DNA from: Lentisphaerota bacterium
GTDB lineage: Bacteria > Verrucomicrobiota > Kiritimatiellia > PWTM01
Assembly: GCA_016873715.1 (NCBI GenBank)
Contig: VGWF01000022.1
Location: 1-43,489, forward strand
Reading direction: 5' to 3'
Length of the DNA: 43,489 nucleotides
This document shows, piece by piece, positions 13,258-40,690 of the stretch (positions within the stretch are counted from its first letter, which is position 1; each line of letters opens with the position of its first letter). The notes under the pieces were generated by a model. That model made no database searches. It saw only the letters and a list, made by a program, of their open reading frames with translations, and had not been told where the DNA came from. Made by a program: the position numbers and the translations under genes.

Positions 13258-14400
13258 CCGGGCGAGGACGAACACCGAACGAGGACGAGGGACGAGGGGC
13301 GGGGCGGAGAACAACATCCAATATCCAACAGCCAACAACCAACATCCAACGGCGGAAGACGAGGAAGGCCGCGAGGAAGAGGCCGACACTCGACACCTGC
13401 CACTCAACACCGTCGTCCCTCGACCCCCGACCCTCGCCCCTTTCCGGGGGCGGGCTGCCGCGAGCCCGAACCGTGCGCTTCTGAAGCATCACCCCCGCGG
13501 CCTCGCAGTAGCTCGGCCCTCCATCACAGGAAGAGGGACGAGGGGCGGGACGGAGAACAACATCCAATATCCAACACCCAACAACCAACAGCCAACATCC
13601 AACGGCGGAAGACGAGGAAGGCCGCGGGGAAGAGGCCGACACTCGGCACCTGCCACTCGACACCGTCCTCCCTCGTCCCCCGACCCTCGCACCTTTCCGG
13701 GGGCGAGCTACCGCGAGCCCGAACCGTGCGCTTCTGAAGCATCACCCCCGCGGCCTCGCATAGCTCGGCCCTCCATCACAGGAAGAGGGGCGAGGGACGA
13801 GGGGCGGAGAACAACATCCAATATCCAACACCCAACAACCAACAGCCAACAGCCGACGGCGGAAGACGAGGAAGGCCGCGAGGAAGAGGCCGACACTCGA
13901 CACCTGCCACTCGACACCGTTCTCCCTCGTCCCCCGACCCTCGCACCTTTCTGGGGGCGGGCTACTACGAGCCCGAACCTTGCGCTACCGAAGCATCGCC
14001 CCGCGGCCTCGCATAGCTCGGCCCTCCATCACAGGAAGAGGGACGAGGGGCGAGGGCGGGGATCAACATCCGATATCCAACAGCCAACAGCCAACAACCA
14101 ACAGCCAACGGCGGAAAGCGAGGAAGGCCGCGAGAAGGAGGCCTACACTCGACACCTGCCACTCGACACCGTTCTCCCTCGTCCCCCGACCCTCGCACCT
14201 TTCTGGGGGCGTGCCCCACGCGGCCTCGCATAGCTCGGCCCTCCATCACAGGACGAGGGACGAGGGGCGAGGGCGGAGAACAACATCCAATATCCAACAG
14301 CCAACAACCAACAGCCAACGGCGGAAAGCGAGGAAGGCTGCGAGGAAGAGGTCGACACTCGACACATGTCCCTCGCCGCCGTCCTCCCTCGCCCGCGCGC
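13258..14400. repeat. Composite tandem repeat, about 217-253 bp period, four to five copies
   Basis: The whole space between the divergent sulfatase and HzsA-like genes is tandem repeat. Each unit has (a) GAGGGAC/GAGGGGC words, (b) a run of 7-nt words of the form CCAACNN (CCAATAT, CCAACAG, CCAACAA, CCAACAT), (c) GGCGGAAGACGAGGAAGGC, (d) a C-rich CCCTCGTCCCCCGACCCTCG stretch, and (e) a minus-strand relative of the ATGGAGGGCC element. TCGGCCCTCC recurs at 13513, 13765, 14018 and 14235, giving periods of 252, 253 and 217. No gene is credible here; open frames across it only reflect the repeat. Confidence 0.92.
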
Positions 14401-14404
14401 TCGT

Positions 14405-14446
14405 CGTTCGATGTTGGGTGTTGGATGTTCGGTGTTCGATGTTCGC
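14405..14446. repeat. Heptanucleotide repeat, reverse orientation
   Basis: Five to six consecutive 7-nt words of the type NGNTGTT (CGATGTT, GGGTGTT, GGATGTT, CGGTGTT, CGATGTT) abut the end of the larger array. They are the reverse complement of the AACANCN words found at 31.4 and 40.5 kb. Confidence 0.8.
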
Positions 14447-24280: not shown

Positions 24281-24669
24281 TCAGGCCGGCGCCGGGAGCC
24301 GCGGGGCGAGGGCGGTGGCGAAGAGCCCGAAGCCGAAGACGAGGATCGTGCCGATGACCGAGAGGGCGATCATGACATAGCCGAGGATGAGCCCCGTCAG
24401 CGCCATGCCGTCGCCGCCGAGCCGTCCGCCGGACCTCCGGATCTCGCCGCGGGCCATGTGGCCCGTGATGACTCCCGGGATGGCGGTCAGGGCGCCCATG
24501 CAGAAGAGGAACGAGACGATGCCCAGGACGAGGCTGGCGATGGCGAGCCCCGAGGTGGGGGCGCCGGACGGACCGGCGGGCGGCACCGCGCCGCCTCCGG
24601 CGGGTGAAAGGCCGAGGGGAGGAACGGGTCCGCCGGAGGGGCGGGAATGGGGGGCATGGCGTCGCTCAT
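24281..24669 (-). pseudogene. DUF4190 membrane protein with apparent +1/-1 frameshift
   Basis: The start ATG 24669 has AGGGAGAAACC upstream and a consensus promoter, and encodes [15 protein letters not shown], a typical proline-rich DUF4190 N-terminus. That frame then becomes non-sensical. The two-helix DUF4190 body ([18 protein letters not shown]..., [18 protein letters not shown]) is in another frame and ends at 24281. Adding one base in the C6 run at 24649-24654 would join them into a ~130-residue protein. Either the gene is broken, the base count is a sequencing error, or translation of the body starts at GTG 24586, which has GGAGG 7 nt upstream. Function of the family is unknown. Confidence 0.65.
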
Positions 24670-24728
24670 GGTTTCTCCCTGCGTTCAGGTCTCCCGGGTG
24701 AACCGTCCTGCGCGGCGGTTCGGACTTC

Positions 24729-24757
24729 AGGATACCCCGGGCGGCCGGCCGCGCCAA
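24729..24757 (-). promoter_or_regulatory. Promoter of the DUF4190 gene
   Basis: On the minus strand TTGGCG (24752-24757) is followed after 17 nt by TATCCT (24729-24734). It starts about 25 nt after the flippase-like gene ends, so the DUF4190 gene has its own transcript. Confidence 0.55.
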
Positions 24758-24782
24758 GCCCCCAGAACTGACCGATCCCGGG

Positions 24783-25835
24783 TCAGGCGGGCGGCGTTGG
24801 AGAGGCCGCCGCCGTGGCGGCCGCCGTCGTCCGCGCCGGTCCGGCGAGGCGGAATCCCGCCGCGCCGCCGAGGAGCGCGGCGGCGATGAGGACCGTGTGC
24901 GCGACGAGAACGGCGCTGAGCGCCTCCTCCTTCGGCAGGCCGAAGAGCAGGGTGAGCGCGGTGGAGACGGTGACCTCGTAGACGCCGATGGCCCCGGAGG
25001 TCGAGGCGGGGATCGCGAAGGCGAGGTGGTTCGCGGCGAGGAAGCCGGCCGACGACAGCGGGCCGATCGCGACCCCGACGGCGCGCGACGCCGCGGCGAA
25101 GGCGGACGCGAGGAGCGCCCACTCGACCGCGGTGATTGCCAGCAGCGCGACGAGCGCTCCCGGCCGCGCGGCCGTCTGCGAGACCCCGTCGACCGTCCGT
25201 CCGAGCAGGTCGCCGACCCTGCGCAGGAGCGCCGGTCCGCGGCGCGCCAGGAAGGCGGCGGGCGCGCGGCCGAGGCCGGGCCACCGGACCAGCAGCGCCA
25301 GCGCGACGATGCCTCCGCAGGCCGCGACGGCAAGGAGACGGATCGGCGGTCCGGCCCAGTCCGGCAGCCGCACGAGCGAGGCGAGCGCGACCATGCCCGC
25401 CGCGAGCAGCAGGATCTCGACGACCTTCTCCACGACCTCGGCGCCGAGGACGAAGGCGGGGCGCACGCCCGATCGCCGGCCGATGACCCACGCGCGGACG
25501 AGGTAGTTGGCCCGGACCGGGATCAGGGTGTCGACCAGGACGCTGATCAGCTCGGCGCCGAGCAGGACGCGGTAGGGGATCCGCTCGACGGGCCGCAGCA
25601 GCAGGCCGAGCTTCACGCACCGCACGGCCATCGAGACGACCGCCAGGGCGAGCGAGGCGGCGATCCAGGCGGGCGACGCGCGTCCGAGCAGGCCGAGCAT
25701 CCGTTCCCCGTCGACGCCGCGGAACGCCAACACGAGACACGCGACGGCCACGACCGTCGTGACGACGATCCGCCGCATCCCCGGGCGGCCGGCGGCGCCC
25801 GCCACTCCGAAGGGGCTCTCGGGTGGGGCGTCCAT
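24783..25835 (-). CDS. Lysylphosphatidylglycerol synthase TM-region / UPF0104-type flippase-like membrane protein
   Basis: A 350-residue inner-membrane protein with about eight hydrophobic segments. The family blocks are present: [20 protein letters not shown], the [12 protein letters not shown] amphipathic stretch and the late [15 protein letters not shown]. Members are related to the membrane half of MprF and to AglD, and are commonly linked to lipid or lipid-linked-sugar movement across the membrane. It is the last gene of a four-gene operon, 4 nt after the radical SAM gene. In this context it may handle a lipid-anchored product made by the two radical SAM proteins; this is inference. Confidence 0.85.
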
Positions 25836-25839
25836 GATC

Positions 25840-27456
25840 TCAGAACGTGACGAGGTTGCGCGGGTGGAGCCAGCGGCGCAGGACGGCCCACGTCAGCTCG
25901 CCGCGGACGAGCAGGCCGAAGCCCATCGCGCCGACCTTGATCACGTTGGCCGCGTAGGCGAGGGCCGTCAGCGGCGCGGGATGGCGCGCGAGGCGGGCCG
26001 AGCGGGCGAACGCGCGGAGCAGCGCCTTCGGAATGAAGCTCTTCGAGACCATGACGTGCAGCGCGGTCCAGAAGCGGTCCTCGGGGGGGCGGGGATACGA
26101 GAGGTCGACGCGGAACTGGCGGAACACCTTGGTCTGCCGGCCCTTGATGTCGGCGTCGGTGATGAGCGCCCTCCTCTTCAACTCCTTCTCGATCGCGGAG
26201 CCGGGGTAGACCGTCAGCGAGAAGAGCACCAGTTCGTAGGGCCGGTCGATCCGCAGGAGCAGGTCGAAGAGCGCGCGCTTGTCGGCGGAGGTGGAGACGG
26301 GGTCGTCGAGGATGACCTGGTAGCCGGCGCGGACGCCGCTCTCGTGGATCGCGCGGGCGGCGCGCAGGACCTGGTCGTCCGGGACATGGCGGTGATACAG
26401 GTCGCGGTTGATCCGCTCGGTGCCCTGGATGCCCATGAAGACCATCGAGAGGCCGACGTCGCGCAGGCGGGCGAGGCGCTCGGGCGTGACCACGCGCGGA
26501 TCCATGTGGATCTCGAACGGGAGACCCACCTCCGCGGGCCAGCGCGCGCAGAACTCGTCCAGCCAGGCGGAGGCGACGGGGAACTCCTCGTCGTCGAACC
26601 GGATCCGGCGCAGGCGCGGGAAGACGCGGCGCGCCGCGGCGATCTCGTCGATCACGTGGCCGACGCTCCGCGTGCGGTGGTAGTGGCGGCCGGGGTACAT
26701 GCGGTCGACGACGCTGTTGGAGCAGAACGTGCAGCTCGGAAACGGGCACCCGCGCGAGGCCATGACGAGGTAGAGGGACTCGTCGACGCACGGATCGCGG
26801 CCCCGGCGGACGCGGTTCCACTCGATCACGACCTTGTCCGGGCTGCCGTAGTCGGGGTGGGGCAGGCTGTCGAGGTCCTCGACCAGGTCGGCGGCCGGAT
26901 GGCGCACGAGGCCGTCCGCGGTGTGGACCCAGAGGCCCGGGATCGTCGCGAGGTCGCCGCCGCTCCGCAACCGGTCGGCCAGCATCGCGAAGCTGCGCTC
27001 GGACTCGCCGATGCAGACGAGGTCCGCGACGGCGGCGGCCTCCTCGGGGCAGGAGGAGGCGTGCATGCCGCCCCAGAGGACGGGACCGTCCCACGCGGCG
27101 CGGATGCGGGTGGTGAGGTCGCGCGCCATCGCGTGGAACGCCGACGCGCGCACGCTCAGGCCGACGAGGCCGGGGCCGATGCGGACGATCTCGGAGACCA
27201 GGAGCTCGATCTCCCGCTCGGTCGGCGGTTCGACGCGGTTGGAGACCCAGTCCTTGAAGTAGATTTCGTGGACCGTCACGCCCGCCCGCCGCAGGATCGA
27301 CGCGAGCAGGCGGATCCCGCTGTTTTCGATCACGTAGAGGGAGACGAGGACGACGGTCAGCGACGGCCGGCCGCGGAGGCGCTGCCACCGCGGCCCCGGC
27401 GCGCCGGGGTTCGCCGCGGCCGCGTCCGGGCCGGCCCCGTCGCGCCCGTCAGGCAT
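25840..27456 (-). CDS. B12-binding-type radical SAM protein with atypical Cys spacing
   Basis: A 538-residue protein. The first ~190 residues have the Rossmann-like cobalamin-binding fold seen in B12 radical SAM proteins (GLVGLSVRASAFHAMARDL, VLWGGMHAS), but I see no DxHxxG motif. The iron-sulfur site reads RGCPFPSCTFCSN, which is C-x4-C-x2-C rather than C-x3-C-x2-C. RIRFDDEEFP and MGIQGTERIN follow, typical of this class. The C-terminal ~80 residues are a hydrophobic/basic helical tail that may touch the membrane. It overlaps the SPASM radical SAM gene by 8 nt and is followed after 4 nt by the flippase-like gene. Probably methylates or rearranges a lipid or small molecule; substrate unknown. 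Confidence 0.85.
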   Translation of the reverse strand: MPDGRDGAGPDAAAANPGAPGPRWQRLRGRPSLTVVLVSLYVIENSGIRLLASILRRAGVTVHEIYFKDWVSNRVEPPTEREIELLVSEIVRIGPGLVGLSVRASAFHAMARDLTTRIRAAWDGPVLWGGMHASSCPEEAAAVADLVCIGESERSFAMLADRLRSGGDLATIPGLWVHTADGLVRHPAADLVEDLDSLPHPDYGSPDKVVIEWNRVRRGRDPCVDESLYLVMASRGCPFPSCTFCSNSVVDRMYPGRHYHRTRSVGHVIDEIAAARRVFPRLRRIRFDDEEFPVASAWLDEFCARWPAEVGLPFEIHMDPRVVTPERLARLRDVGLSMVFMGIQGTERINRDLYHRHVPDDQVLRAARAIHESGVRAGYQVILDDPVSTSADKRALFDLLLRIDRPYELVLFSLTVYPGSAIEKELKRRALITDADIKGRQTKVFRQFRVDLSYPRPPEDRFWTALHVMVSKSFIPKALLRAFARSARLARHPAPLTALAYAANVIKVGAMGFGLLVRGELTWAVLRRWLHPRNLVTF

Positions 27457-28486
27457 AGAGCTTGCTCATGATTTCCACGGCGCCCTGCATGCAGCCGGGG
27501 CAGTCCACCACCTGGCGACGGGCCGCCCGCGCGGGCTCGGAGAACCAGACGTCGTCGAAGTCGCGCTCGACGAGACTGCCGAGGGGCTTCTGGTTCAGGC
27601 CGCAGGTCATCAGTTCGCCGGACGGGTTGAGGTACATCAGGTCGCGCAGTTCGCCGCAGCGGAACTTCACGGCGTTGCCGCCCGCGGCGTGCTTGCGGAA
27701 GACGACCTGGTTCAAGGCGCGGAGGAAGAAGCGCTCGACGGGGTTGAAGCCCGAGGCGGCGCCGTGACGCATCTCCGCGAGGCGGTCGAGGGCGCGCTGG
27801 CGGTCGACGAGGTTGATCGTCTGGGCGCGCTCCTTCCGGATGTCGCAGTCGCGGAGGAACGGCTTCACCTTGAACCCGGGGACGACGTCGACGCCGAGGG
27901 ATCGGCACAACTCGGAAAGGCCGGGCATCTCCCCGACGCTGTCGTCGGTCATCGTGAAGTTGACCCCGACCTGGAACCGGCGGGTCTTCCGCAGGCGCGA
28001 GAGGCCGCGGAGGGTCTCCACGGCGCGGTCGAACGCGCCGGCGTGGCCGCGCGACCGGTCGTGGGTCTCGCGGAGCCCGTCCAGCGAGACGCGCAGGTGC
28101 AGGCCCGGCCACGCGTGGCGGTCGACGAACGCGAGGATGCGGTCGGTGAGGCTCGCGTTGGTGACGAGCTGGACGACGAACGGGTCGATCTCGCGGCGGA
28201 GCGCGACGACGATCTCCGGGAGGTCCTCGCGGGCGAACGGCTCGCCGCCGATGATCTTGACGATGTCGAGGAACGGGAGCCGGGAGAAGACCCGCGCCCA
28301 GCCGCCCGCGTCGAGCTCGCTGCCCGGGGGCCGCTGCCAGGCGTCGCAGCCGCCGCAGCGCAGGTTGCACCGCCACGTGATGAGGATGTGCGCGGCGTGG
28401 GGTCGCCGGGGGGCGGAGGCCGGGGCCAGCCGCGCGTGAAGGACATGGCCGTAGGCCCGGAGTCGCGGGGGAAGGCGCGCGCTCAT
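27449..28486 (-). CDS. SPASM-type radical SAM protein
   Basis: A 345-residue radical SAM protein. The cluster-binding site is C40-x3-C44-x2-C47 (WRCNLRCGGC). KIIGGEPF is the GGE SAM-binding motif, and LRVSLDG is conserved in SPASM/PqqE-like proteins. A C-terminal cysteine-rich region (FRCGELRDLMYLNPSGELMTCG and CPGC at 329-332) looks like a SPASM or twitch auxiliary-cluster domain. SPASM enzymes modify peptides, sugars or cofactors. There is no visible precursor-peptide gene beside it. It overlaps the PP-loop gene by 4 nt and the next radical SAM gene by 8 nt. Confidence 0.88.
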   Translation of the reverse strand: MSARLPPRLRAYGHVLHARLAPASAPRRPHAAHILITWRCNLRCGGCDAWQRPPGSELDAGGWARVFSRLPFLDIVKIIGGEPFAREDLPEIVVALRREIDPFVVQLVTNASLTDRILAFVDRHAWPGLHLRVSLDGLRETHDRSRGHAGAFDRAVETLRGLSRLRKTRRFQVGVNFTMTDDSVGEMPGLSELCRSLGVDVVPGFKVKPFLRDCDIRKERAQTINLVDRQRALDRLAEMRHGAASGFNPVERFFLRALNQVVFRKHAAGGNAVKFRCGELRDLMYLNPSGELMTCGLNQKPLGSLVERDFDDVWFSEPARAARRQVVDCPGCMQGAVEIMSKLYA

Positions 28487-29289
28487 CCCGCCACACCCAG
28501 GTGCGGCCCGGTGATCCGGCGGAGCGCCTCGACCGCCGCGCCGAGATCCCGGCCGGTCGAGCGGAAGTGCTCCTCGACGTACCGCTCGCAGATCGGGAGC
28601 TTGTCGCGGAAGAAGCGGCCGACCGCCTCCGGCTCGAGCACCGGGTGGACGTTGAACAGCACGTCGGGCAGGTGCTGGAGGCTCAGCAGGCAGTAGCCCT
28701 GGTTGCCGAAGGAGTGCTTGTCGAGGAACCGGTGGCCGCGAAACACGCCCGCGGCGTCGAGCATCTGGCGCTCGGTCTCCTTGACGATGTTCGCCTCGAG
28801 CAGCGGGGGCGAGTAGAGCACGCCGTACTTCCCGCAGTAGGCCTTCTGGTGCTCGATCGTGACGGGCATCGACATCACCGCGTACTGTCCGCCGACGGAG
28901 GAGCCGAAGAAGGCGTGGGGGATGCAGCGCTCGAGGTTGTAGATCAGCATCTTGGTGACGATCGCCATCGTGCAGCCGAGGCAGCAGCCGAACCAGGCCC
29001 CGTAGGTCCGGCGGTCGGCGGCGAGCGACTTCCACGCGAGCTGGTCGAAGAGGTCGCGCGTGTTGACGAAGCGGTGGACGATCGCATCCTCGCCGAGCGC
29101 GCGCTTCATGCCGCGGACGGACTTCAGGGCCCAGCGGTTGAACAGGTAGCCGTGACCGTGCGTGAAGGTGTGGAGATGGACCCGCCCCTTCTTCTGCAGC
29201 GCGGCCATGTAGGCGACCGACGTCGAGTCGAGCCCCCCCGAGAAGCCGATGCTGCAGTCGCCCAACAGTTCCTGGCCCAGCAGTGCCAT
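28483..29289 (-). CDS. PP-loop (N-type ATP pyrophosphatase) protein with Cys-rich motif
   Basis: A 268-residue protein if started at ATG 29289; the in-frame ATG 29334 is less likely because it overlaps the -10 of a promoter. The PP-loop is at 17-22 (SGGLDS), which binds ATP and releases pyrophosphate to adenylate a substrate. A striking WFGCCLGCTM (C102, C103, C106) and further cysteines at about 121 and 152 suggest metal or iron-sulfur binding, as in tRNA- or cofactor-thiolating PP-loop enzymes. Related folds include QueC, TilS/TtcA and asparagine-synthase-like amidotransferases, but I cannot place it in any. First gene of the radical SAM operon. Confidence 0.75.
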   Translation of the reverse strand: MALLGQELLGDCSIGFSGGLDSTSVAYMAALQKKGRVHLHTFTHGHGYLFNRWALKSVRGMKRALGEDAIVHRFVNTRDLFDQLAWKSLAADRRTYGAWFGCCLGCTMAIVTKMLIYNLERCIPHAFFGSSVGGQYAVMSMPVTIEHQKAYCGKYGVLYSPPLLEANIVKETERQMLDAAGVFRGHRFLDKHSFGNQGYCLLSLQHLPDVLFNVHPVLEPEAVGRFFRDKLPICERYVEEHFRSTGRDLGAAVEALRRITGPHLGVAG

Positions 29290-29332
29290 GATAGTCCGTC
29301 CCCGCGTCGAGTCCGTTGTTCCTGCCTGCCCC

Positions 29333-29362
29333 ATCGTTGCGCCCGGGGGCGGTCAAAGTCAA
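29333..29362 (-). promoter_or_regulatory. Promoter of the PP-loop/radical SAM operon
   Basis: On the minus strand TTGACT (29357-29362) is followed after 18 nt by AACGAT (29333-29338). Transcription would begin near 29326, leaving a leader of ~35 nt before ATG 29289. Confidence 0.45.
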
Positions 29363-29450
29363 TTCCGTTGCGTCGCGGAGGCGGGGGCCGGAATCACTGG
29401 CCAACCGGCCGCGTTGGTGGTTAGATGGGGCCATCCAACCGGAGGGTCGC

Positions 29451-30128
29451 ATGAACGGGATGAAGGGTCTGGCGGCGGTGGGCGTGGCGGCGATGGTGGC
29501 GGCGGGATGCGCGACGGCGCCGAAGGGCGAGGCGGCGCGCGAATGCCTGTTCAACGGGAAGGACCTGGACGGGTGGGGCGCGTTCCTCGTCGACCCGGCC
29601 CTGAAGATGACCGACGTCTGGAGCGTGAAGGACGGCCTGCTGGTCTGCCGGGGCGAACCGCTGGGCTACATCCATACGAAGCGCACGTTCACGAACTTCC
29701 GGCTGCGGGTCGAGTGGCGCTGGGCCCCCGGCGGCAAGGCGGGCAATAGCGGCGTGCTGCTGCGCATCAACGGCGAGCCGAAGGGCCTCCCGCGCTGCAT
29801 CGAGTGCCAGCTCAGGAGTGGCGACGCGGGCGCGATCTACGGGTTCCACGGGATGAAGGTCGCCGGCGCGGCGGACCGGTTCATGGAGAAGACCACGCCC
29901 AACACCGGCGAGATGCGCGGCGTGAAGAAGATCGAGGGCGCCGAGAACGCGCCGGGCGAGTGGAACGTCTACGAGATCGAGCTCGTCGGCGGCGCGCTGA
30001 CCGCGAAGGTCAACGGGAAGAAGGTCAACGAGGCGACCGGGTGCGAGGTCGTCGCAGGGCAGATCGGCCTGCAGTCCGAGGGCGGCGAAATCCACTTCCG
30101 CAAGGTCTGCATCGAACCGCTGCCGTAG
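29451..30128 (+). CDS. DUF1080 lipoprotein (3-keto-disaccharide hydrolase domain)
   Basis: A 225-residue protein after a strong GGAGGG ribosome binding site. The N-terminus is a lipoprotein signal: hydrophobic stretch then VAAG-C20 as lipobox. The rest is a concanavalin-like DUF1080 domain, opening with LFNGKDLDGWGAF and containing FTNFRLRVEWRWAPGGKAGN, NSGVLLR and GEWNVYEIEL. DUF1080 is now often called 3-keto-disaccharide hydrolase; many PVC-group copies are secreted and uncharacterised. TTAGAT at 29421 may be its -10. It is divergent from the radical SAM operon and convergent with agmatine deiminase. Confidence 0.92.
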   Translation: MNGMKGLAAVGVAAMVAAGCATAPKGEAARECLFNGKDLDGWGAFLVDPALKMTDVWSVKDGLLVCRGEPLGYIHTKRTFTNFRLRVEWRWAPGGKAGNSGVLLRINGEPKGLPRCIECQLRSGDAGAIYGFHGMKVAGAADRFMEKTTPNTGEMRGVKKIEGAENAPGEWNVYEIELVGGALTAKVNGKKVNEATGCEVVAGQIGLQSEGGEIHFRKVCIEPLP

Positions 30129-31375: not shown

Positions 31376-31496
31376 CCAACATCCAACATCCAACATCCAA
31401 CAGCCAACAGCCAACACCGAACACCCAACACCGAACACCGAGCATCGAACACCGAACACCGAGCATCGAACACCGAACATCGAACATCCGACATCG
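31376..31496. repeat. Heptanucleotide repeat array (CCAACNN / CGAACNN words)
   Basis: About 16-17 consecutive degenerate 7-nt words. The first six are of the CCAACAT/CCAACAG kind; the rest are CGAACAC/CGAGCAT kinds. The array ends in CGAACATCGAACTGCGGA, the same string that occurs inside the array at 40.5 kb. It fills most of the 248-nt gap between agmatine deiminase and the small membrane protein gene. Confidence 0.92.
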
Positions 31497-31529
31497 AACT
31501 GCGGATCGTGGGTTTGGAATCCCGCAACG

Positions 31530-31834: not shown

Positions 31835-32115
31835 GGGGATACCGGCGCGCCGGCCGGATTTCCCGGTCCACCGGGACAAGCCCGGTGGGACCGGCATCTT
31901 CCCTGGCCATGGAGGGCCGCGCTCCGTCGCGGCCGTGCGGAGGTCCATCGAGTCCTTCCGGCCCGATGGGACCGGCATCTTCCCTGGCCATGGAGGGCCG
32001 CGCTCCGTCGCGGCCGTGGGGAGGACCATCGAAGCCATCCGGCCCGGTGGGACCGGAATCATGCCTGGTCATGGAGGGCCGCGCTCCGTCGCGGCCGTGC
32101 GGCGGCCCATCGAAG
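31835..32115. repeat. Array 1 of CTCCGT-loop hairpin element (81-bp period, three copies)
   Basis: ATGGAG followed by the perfect hairpin GGCCGCG-CTCCGT-CGCGGCC starts at 31909, 31990 and 32071, exactly 81 bp apart. The units are separated by linkers containing GGTGGGACCGG-like words. The array opens with a border (about 31835-31893) containing a near-perfect inverted repeat, CCGGTCCACCGGG / CCCGGTGGGACCGG. Because 81 is a multiple of three, open frames of 27-residue repeats run through it, but I do not call them genes. Confidence 0.9.
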
Positions 32116-33439: not shown

Positions 33440-34040
33440 TACCGGTTCGCCGGCCGAGTGATTTTCCGGTCCACCGGGGCAAGCCCGGTGGGACCGTCAA
33501 TTCAAGCGAGCGGACAAGCCCGGTGGGACCGGCCTTTCGCGTGAGCAATCCGGCCCGGTGGGACCGGCCTTTCGCGTGAGCGGGCGGGCCCGGTGGGACC
33601 GGCGTCTTGCCTGGCCATGGAGGGCCGCGCTCCGTCGCGGCCGTGAGCAGGTCCATCGAAGCAATCCGGCCCGGTGGGACCGGCCTTTCGCGTGAGCGGG
33701 CGGGCCCGGTGGGACCGGCGTCTTGCCTGGCCATGGAGGGCCGCGCTCCGTCGCGGCCGTGCGGCGGGCCATCGTGGCAACCCGGCCCGGTGGGACCGGC
33801 CTTTCGCGTGAGCGGGCGGGCCCGGTGGGACCGGCGTCTTGCCTGGCCATGGAGGGCCGCGCTCCGTCGCGGCCGTGAGGCGGTCCATCGAAGCAATCCG
33901 GCCCGGTGGGACCGTCAATTCAAGCGAGCGGGCAAGCCCGGCGGGACCGGGCCCAGGGGGACCTGCATCCTGCACGCCATGGAGGGCCGCGCTCCGTCGC
34001 GGCCGTGGGGAGGACCATCGAAGCCATCCGGCCCGGCGGC
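33440..34040. repeat. Array 2 of CTCCGT-loop hairpin element (116-130 bp spacing, four copies)
   Basis: ATGGAG + GGCCGCG-CTCCGT-CGCGGCC starts at 33617, 33733, 33849 and 33979. The linkers are longer than in array 1 and add CCTTTCGCGTGAGCGGGC modules between GGTGGGACCGG words. The border at about 33457-33496 repeats the array 1 border (GCCGGCCG..., then GGTCCACCGGGGCAAGCCCG). The 692-nt stretch between the SUMF1 gene and leuS holds only this array. Confidence 0.92.
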
Positions 34041-34058
34041 ACCGGCGTTCGCGCGCGC

Positions 34059-36654: not shown

Positions 36655-37112
36655 GGAGGCTCCAAGGGCCAGGGGAGCGCAGAGCGAAGAGCCAAGAGCC
36701 TAGAGCACAGAGCGGAGAGCGGAGAGCGGAGGGCACAGAGCGCAGAGCGAAGAGCACAGAGCGAAGAGCGGAGAGCACAGAGCGAAGAGCGGAGAGCGAA
36801 GAGCCCAGAGCGGAGAGCCCAGAGCGAAGAGCAAAGAGCGGAGGGCACGGAGCGGCGAGCAGGAAGAGGCGGAGCGTCTCTGCCCTCGCCCCTCGTCCCT
36901 CGCCCCTCGCCCCTCGTCTCCCTGCCCTCCGCCCTCCGTCTCTCCGCTCTCTGCTCTTTGCTCTTCGCTCTTTGCCCTCCGCCCTCCGACCTCTGTCCTC
37001 CGACTCCCGTCTCCCCGCTCTCCGGCTTTCCGGCTCTGCGCCCTCCGCCCTCCGGCTCTCCGGCTCCCTGCTCTCCGCTCTCCGGCTCTCCGCCCTCCGC
37101 CCCCCCCGCCGG
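36655..37112. repeat. Inverted pair of heptanucleotide arrays between leuS and rplM
   Basis: The left arm (about 36670-36865) is ~25-28 tandem 7-nt words AGAGCNN (AGAGCGA, AGAGCAC, AGAGCGG). After a short centre, the right arm (about 36885-37112) is pyrimidine-rich with 7-nt words such as CCCTCGT, CCCTCCG, NNGCTCT and CCGGCTCT, i.e. the opposite polarity. The two arms could pair imperfectly over about 200 bp. It fills the divergent gap between the leuS and rplM promoters. Confidence 0.9.
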
Positions 37113-37137
37113 CTTTCCAAAGCCCTGTCGAACGTGA

Positions 37138-40477: not shown

Positions 40478-40690
40478 TTCGAACATCGAACACCGAACAA
40501 CGAACATCCCCCACCGAACACCGAACATCGAACTGCGGACTCAACATCCAACATCCAACAGCCAACGTCCAACAACCAACATCCAACAGCCAGCAGCCAA
40601 CCTGGAACGCCGAACCTCTGAACCTGCGAACCTCCGAACCTGTGAACCCGGGAACCTCCGAACCTCCCTCTGACACCTGACACCTCCGGT
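40478..40690. repeat. Heptanucleotide repeat array between argB and argD, with an 8-nt segment
   Basis: The array starts with 7-nt words GAACATC, GAACACC, GAACAAC, passes through GAACTGCGGA, and continues as AACATCC/AACAGCC words to ~40608. It then switches to 8-nt words (GAACCTGC, GAACCTCC, GAACCTGT, GAACCCGG) and ends with TGACACC repeated. The array fills nearly the whole 239-nt gap inside the arginine gene run. Confidence 0.92.

Follow-up and report, generated by a model that had tools for sequence, protein, structure and literature searches.

Operon structure

We analysed a 43,489-nucleotide stretch (the window) of contig VGWF01000022.1, which is contig C22 of genome G000, a Lentisphaerota bacterium of the Kiritimatiellia (assembly GCA_016873715.1; 5.1 Mb, 97.6% complete). 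The window contains an operon of four minus-strand genes encoding a PP-loop protein, two radical S-adenosylmethionine (SAM) proteins and a flippase-like membrane protein (Table 1). As described in an earlier note on this DNA, which was made from the letters alone, the genes are tightly packed: the PP-loop gene overlaps the SPASM-like radical SAM gene by 4 nt, the latter overlaps the B12 radical SAM gene by 8 nt, and a gap of 4 nt precedes the flippase-like gene. All four start with ATG and end with TGA, and their GC content at third codon positions is 0.94–0.97. The PP-loop gene has an alternative upstream ATG at 29334; its homologues begin at the position equivalent to 29289.

Table 1. Genes of the operon, listed in the direction of transcription
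Product	Position	Strand	Length and features
PP-loop protein, YcfA fold	28483..29289	-	268 aa; SGGLDS at residues 17-22
SPASM/Twitch-like radical SAM protein	27449..28486	-	345 aa; CX3CX2C at C40/C44/C47
B12-binding-domain radical SAM protein	25840..27456	-	538 aa; CX4CX2C at C237/C242/C245
pfam03706 (LPG_synthase_TM/UPF0104) flippase-like membrane protein	24783..25835	-	350 aa; ~7 predicted membrane segments

The family assignments proposed previously were borne out. The second protein matched Pfam Radical_SAM and SPASM (SPASM 23.7 bits, cut-off 21.5), the third B12-binding (46.5 bits) and Radical_SAM (44.8 bits), both above cut-off, and the fourth LPG_synthase_TM (98.8 bits, cut-off 33.4). 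The PP-loop protein passed no curated cut-off, with Asn_synthase and QueC as its best Pfam/NCBIfam matches, and none of the four proteins reached the cut-off of a curated NCBIfam family. Neither a precursor peptide gene nor a glycosyltransferase gene adjoins the operon in the window, in agreement with the earlier note. In contrast, the single good promoter claimed there found no support, as a scan for sigma-70-like promoters found none in 24300–29700 (chance expectation 0.1).

Conservation of the gene set

The PP-loop gene is rare, being found in 3 of the 388 genomes of our phylum sample, a count that includes the window's own genome and one genome with a weak match only. The GTDB collection contained four relatives of the protein with 60–66% identity, and the nearest named relative of the operon from the same class is a Kiritimatiellia metagenome-assembled genome (MAG). 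All four genes, in the order and on the strand seen in the window, are present on the Kiritimatiellia contig JAOZSS010000031 of genome G304 (loci L015/L018). Two further genomes would show the same order once their contigs are joined. In G389, a MAG labelled as a proteobacterium that falls in the same phylum sample as the Myxococcota MAG G390, contigs L016 and L033 break off inside the SPASM-like radical SAM gene and together would give the complete series from PP-loop to flippase-like gene. Likewise, L014 and L034 of the Verrucomicrobia MAG G388 would restore the order across cut radical SAM and B12 genes; the B12 orthologue of this genome is present as its C-terminal 169 residues only. In G390 the PP-loop and SPASM-like radical SAM genes are neighbours; the orthologous B12 gene (51%, also with CX4CX2C) is located elsewhere. 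Because it recurs in other phyla, the four-gene arrangement is far beyond chance.

Within a sample of 284 Myxococcota genomes, a PP-loop profile found matches in 39, and ten genomes besides G389 and G390 scored 169–223 bits. We refer to the PP-loop, SPASM-like radical SAM and B12 radical SAM genes as the triad. The PP-loop gene shares a contig with the two radical SAM genes, within ∼11 kb, in G542, G556, G627, G415, G595 and G665, and the triad also lies on a single contig in the window and in G304. In G473 and G585 the two radical SAM genes are neighbours and the PP-loop gene is on a separate contig.

Co-occurrence was assessed in 35 genomes, comprising 14 with a triad-type PP-loop gene, 20 Myxococcota without a PP-loop gene, and G652, whose PP-loop protein is more distant. 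Members of the SPASM-like radical SAM clade were present in all 14 of the former and in none of the 20 lacking the PP-loop gene (G400 gave a single weak match, at 177 bits). B12 clade members were found in 13 of the 14 and again in 0 of the 20; the exception was G518, whose SPASM-like radical SAM gene begins at a contig end (base 2). Fisher's exact test for radical SAM against PP-loop presence gave 7e-10, a descriptive value since the genomes are not independent. G652 had a member of neither clade. The PP-loop and SPASM-like trees share their main split, with which the B12 tree agrees, a second G390 copy sitting on a long branch. Since both the PP-loop and the SPASM-like radical SAM gene are missing from the closest relatives of G000, the distribution of the gene set is patchy, and transfer between phyla is likely.

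The check proposed by the earlier note, conserved co-occurrence of the families, thus showed genes kept together across phyla and not the lack of joint conservation in relatives that the note had named as refuting its proposal. This conservation supports the view that the operon encodes one biosynthetic pathway. The earlier note knew of no pathway with this gene order; similarly, open-access papers yielded no published counterpart of the PP-loop, radical SAM and flippase/cobalamin set and none tying it to a product, although a description elsewhere is possible.

The PP-loop protein

An AlphaFold2 model of the PP-loop protein had a predicted local distance difference test score (pLDDT) of 77.8 and a pTM of 0.83, with residues 187–215 poorly modelled. 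Searches with Foldseek and VIA-align 2 ranked YcfA of Erwinia amylovora first (Z 21.7–23.1, root-mean-square deviation (rmsd) 2.2–2.8, 208–215 residues), the best VIA match having Z 23.1 and rmsd 2.2 over 208 residues at ∼20% identity. ThiI, a 4-thiouridine synthetase, represented the next fold family, with Z 13.9. A wide PP-loop profile also picked up YcfA by sequence (E 5.8e-22). A direct hidden Markov model link to TtcA was insignificant and was rejected.

Across 21 homologues the SGGxDS motif, C106 and C200 were invariant and C103 near-invariant; all three cysteines were present in 5/5 close members. The earlier note had suggested thiolation through a CCxxC motif. Thiolation has since gained support from the fold, the invariant cysteines and sulfur-relay neighbours, but the motif needs revision, as conservation extends to C103, C106 and, further along, C200 but not to C102. 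A C-x2-C pair followed by a third cysteine ∼94 residues on recalls the PP-loop insertases that carry a [4Fe-4S] cluster (TtcA/TtuA/NcsA and Thermotoga LarE), with ligands at C142, C145 and C233 in NcsA (PMC10067955) and at C92, C96 and C172 in LarE (PMC9283937). By this analogy we propose that C103-x2-C106 and C200 may bind a [4Fe-4S] cluster or carry a persulfide. In contrast to TtcA, TtuA and NcsA, the window protein has no Zn-finger cysteine pairs and no detectable tRNA-binding domain, and its alignment to TtcA is weak.

Sulfur metabolism genes occur beside distant homologues of the PP-loop gene. Both L077 and L081 encode a SufS-like cysteine desulfurase, CysK and CysE next to such a homologue (404, 460 and 157 bits, respectively, in L081). 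L081 contains a TusD-like gene as well, and in L066 a CysE gene occupies this position. The YcfA fold, the C-x2-C...C pattern and these sulfur genes make ATP-dependent thiolation the likeliest first step.

YcfA is required together with the pyridoxal phosphate (PLP) protein YcfC for formation of 6-thioguanosine (PMC6225789). The 6-thioguanine systems (the Erwinia amylovora ycf and staphylococcal tgs genes) and the window share a PP-loop N-type ATP pyrophosphatase fold, but the window protein has C103/C106/C200 in place of Cys113 of YcfA. Unlike the ycf and tgs clusters, the window operon lacks PLP desulfurase, NUDIX and efflux genes, and the partners of its PP-loop gene are two radical SAM enzymes.

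L081:1003-5874 and L077:1-6339 are likely self-standing sulfur-transfer modules with a PP-loop gene of the window's family. In the Myxococcota loci L075, L078, L079 and L082, the partner of a distant YcfA-like PP-loop gene encodes a small membrane-like protein starting M-x-x-CCGGKNAGKPI; these four loci and L076 illustrate a frequent association of distant PP-loop genes with a NodU-type carbamoyltransferase, and L076 and L079 additionally encode a SPASM-like radical SAM protein and an MBL-fold protein.

The radical SAM proteins

The designation of the second gene product as a SPASM protein in the earlier note holds at the level of the domain match, which is above cut-off. However, the protein does not show the full seven-cysteine SPASM motif for two auxiliary clusters, and its C-terminal cysteines invariant in the clade (C277, C295, C329 and C332) fit a single-cluster Twitch domain better. 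Its profile matched SkfB best among PDB structures, followed by others including cytosylglucuronate decarboxylase, PqqE, 7wzv and, weakly, a glycerol dialkyl glycerol tetraether (GDGT) synthase. With a mean pLDDT of 61.7, the structural model was not good enough to be searched by fold. PADLOC returned only a weak viperin-like match to the radical SAM domain, which we take as superfamily similarity, and a defence system was rejected.

The B12 protein does not have the canonical CX3CX2C motif, which enzymes of this type do not strictly need. CX4CX2C was found in every triad B12 enzyme checked, in contrast to the CX3CX2C of every B12 radical SAM paralogue checked from the same genomes. The former spacing is also described for GenD1, a B12 radical SAM C-methylase of a gentamicin sugar (PMC4340712); we liken the two by this motif description, and they differ in pathway, partners and size (77 kDa for GenD1). 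Profile comparison with solved structures pointed to OxsB and AprD4. As non-methylating B12 radical SAM relatives form or rearrange rings (PMC13142503), the reaction may be either a methylation or ring or C–C chemistry.

Elsewhere in the genome of the window, locus L011 (G000:C25:16000-35999) is a second gene cluster. It combines a SPASM radical SAM protein with three or more B12 radical SAM proteins, among them a 42% paralogue of the window protein, and additionally encodes a KAPA/SPT-like synthase and a MacB/TolC-like exporter. Comparable clusters (L037, L038 and L040) are present in G304, G388 and G389, all of which possess the window operon as well. The Tes/MJ0619-type radical SAM gene at L104:12107-13531 is close to a gene for a B12 radical SAM paralogue.

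The membrane protein

The pfam03706 family comprises predicted flippases of lipids or lipid-linked saccharides in glycosylation pathways (PMC5898192), and by analogy the fourth gene is a hint that the product is sugar- or nucleotide-like and lipid-linked. The protein has the LPG_synthase_TM domain in common with the pfam03706/COG0392 flippases, such as the N-terminal part of MprF and the C-terminal domain of AglD, but stands alone and is encoded in an operon with PP-loop and radical SAM enzymes. The gene lies beside the B12 gene in 4 of the 14 triad-type genomes and was not seen near the triad in other Myxococcota loci. With adjacency in these genomes only and no lipid-specific enzyme in the operon, the lipid-like product and export suggested by the earlier note are retained here as a conjecture.

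Polytopic membrane proteins with weak or no PTPS_related similarity are encoded near the triad in G389, G304, G627, G415 and G665; at a guess, these could be GT-C-type transferases. No such protein is encoded beside the operon in the window. Near the flippase-like gene of G388, L034:1309-5956 contains a Tes/MJ0619-type radical SAM gene whose protein has an HMPTM zinc ribbon and which adjoins genes for an amine-oxidase-like FAD protein and U32 peptidases.

A proposed pathway and its alternatives

Combining these observations, we propose the following scheme. The PP-loop protein would activate a small substrate by ATP-dependent adenylation of a carbonyl oxygen, which sulfur would then replace by way of a [4Fe-4S] cluster or a persulfide on C103/C106/C200. 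The two radical SAM proteins may alter unactivated C–H positions of the same scaffold, after or before thiolation, with C-methylation, C–C bond formation and ring rearrangement as possible steps. Where the pfam03706 protein accompanies them, in one Myxococcota genome and in the Kiritimatiellia/Verrucomicrobia branch, it would move the product across the membrane or anchor it there. The substrate would most plausibly be a sugar- or nucleotide-like unit, perhaps lipid-linked, although this part is weakly inferred. The three-enzyme core is well supported by its observed conservation; the reactions, their sequence and the end product are our interpretation of it. We consider the scheme as a whole, with thiolation, two radical modifications and flippase-like export in one branch, to be the likeliest reading, at somewhat less than even probability.

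Several observations weigh against the scheme. The triad genes are not all adjacent in G390, G473, G585 and G518, and the flippase-like gene adjoins them in 4 of the 14 genomes only. The operon contains neither a cysteine desulfurase nor a sulfur carrier, and a PLP-dependent desulfurase-like partner was absent from the triad loci as well, being seen only beside the distant homologues in L077 and L081. Within the wider PP-loop family C103 is partly lost (it is Phe in part of the carbamoyltransferase-linked clade), and the C200 region was modelled at pLDDT <50. YcfA Cys113, which we take to be the catalytic residue, is not conserved, aligning with N118 of the window protein, and the window cysteines therefore differ from those of YcfA. 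When hhalign places C103/C106 on the CxxC of Escherichia coli TtcA (122/125), it does so weakly (probability 2.9%), which makes this placement no more than a lead. Finally, the substrate class is weakly supported because the closest solved or curated radical SAM relatives score far below family cut-offs.

The missing desulfurase is also what would be expected if the PP-loop protein transferred ammonia or an amine rather than sulfide, acting as an amidating or ligating enzyme like asparagine synthetase, QueC, the nitrile synthetase ArtA or NAD synthetase, the remaining pathway being as proposed. Its top Pfam/NCBIfam matches (Asn_synthase and QueC) and the presence of ArtA and argininosuccinate synthetase among the fold matches are consistent with this. 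However, the fold is clearly closest to YcfA and then ThiI, amidation would not need the invariant C106 and C200, and sulfur-relay genes lie beside distant homologues. These features favour sulfur over nitrogen transfer, and we regard amidation as unlikely. A second alternative retains the flippase and both radical enzymes but has them build or modify a membrane lipid tail (hopanoid-, ladderane- or tetraether-like) through radical C–C bond formation and lipid flipping. It would account for HpnH and HpnJ being among the top-scoring curated families for the SPASM-like and B12 proteins, for the weak GDGT synthase match and for the Tes-like radical SAM genes in L034 and L104, as well as for the pfam03706 gene itself. 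Nevertheless, the Hpn scores are far below cut-off (61.8 bits for HpnJ, against an equivalog cut-off of 577.6), there is no HpnI/HpnK context, and the squalene-hopene cyclase model TIGR01507 had no match above cut-off in 11 genomes, which led us to reject a hopanoid pathway. The operon also lacks an acyltransferase or prenyl enzyme, and we know of no lipid-tail pathway with a place for a thiolase-like PP-loop enzyme. A lipid-tail function is therefore rather improbable.

Similarity of the SPASM-like protein to SkfB, and its weak matches to SPASM-like maturases and ApyD, could be read as maturation of a ribosomally synthesized and post-translationally modified peptide whose precursor is encoded elsewhere or was overlooked. 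No precursor candidate was found in the window or in the gaps before the PP-loop gene in L015 (60 nt) and L016 (∼180 nt), however, and the operon encodes no peptidase or ABC exporter. As most triad genomes lack it, the small CCGGKNAGKP protein found in the distant clade was rejected as a precursor. We consider a peptide pathway very improbable. Scarcely credible, too, is the notion that the genes were transferred together yet serve unrelated reactions. Patchy distribution across Kiritimatiellia/Verrucomicrobia and Myxococcota, and absence from the nearest relatives, would suit it, but the PP-loop and SPASM-like genes always co-occur, even where the loci are split (G473 and G585), the genes overlap and the trees agree in their main split.

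Returning to the thiolation scheme, its most far-reaching form is a new biosynthetic class present in Kiritimatiellota/Verrucomicrobiota and Myxococcota. Its product would be a sugar- or nucleotide-lipid that bears a thiocarbonyl group and radical modifications; an Fe-S YcfA-fold thiolase, a Twitch radical SAM enzyme and a CX4CX2C B12 radical SAM enzyme would make it, and the pfam03706 protein would flip it to the surface. We hold this specific version to be doubtful. In any case, uncultured bacteria of two distantly related phyla carry a conserved, unnamed gene set that combines a sulfur-insertase-like PP-loop enzyme with two radical enzymes. If thiolation is true, a new small molecule would join tRNA, the nickel-pincer nucleotide and 6-thioguanine among the targets of Fe-S PP-loop chemistry. 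Further members can be sought with simple markers, namely the CX4CX2C signature and the paired profiles.

Surrounding sequence

Upstream of the G304 operon, L018:6062-9091 is a single open reading frame of 1010 aa in which a polytopic membrane part is combined with PPIC-type rotamase and FGE-sulfatase domains. The window itself contains arrays of repeated 7-bp units (CAACATC and similar) at 13282-14445, 31378-31499, 36675-37118 and 40479-40667, and 81- to 253-bp arrays at 13282-14211, 31880-32115 and 33544-34053.

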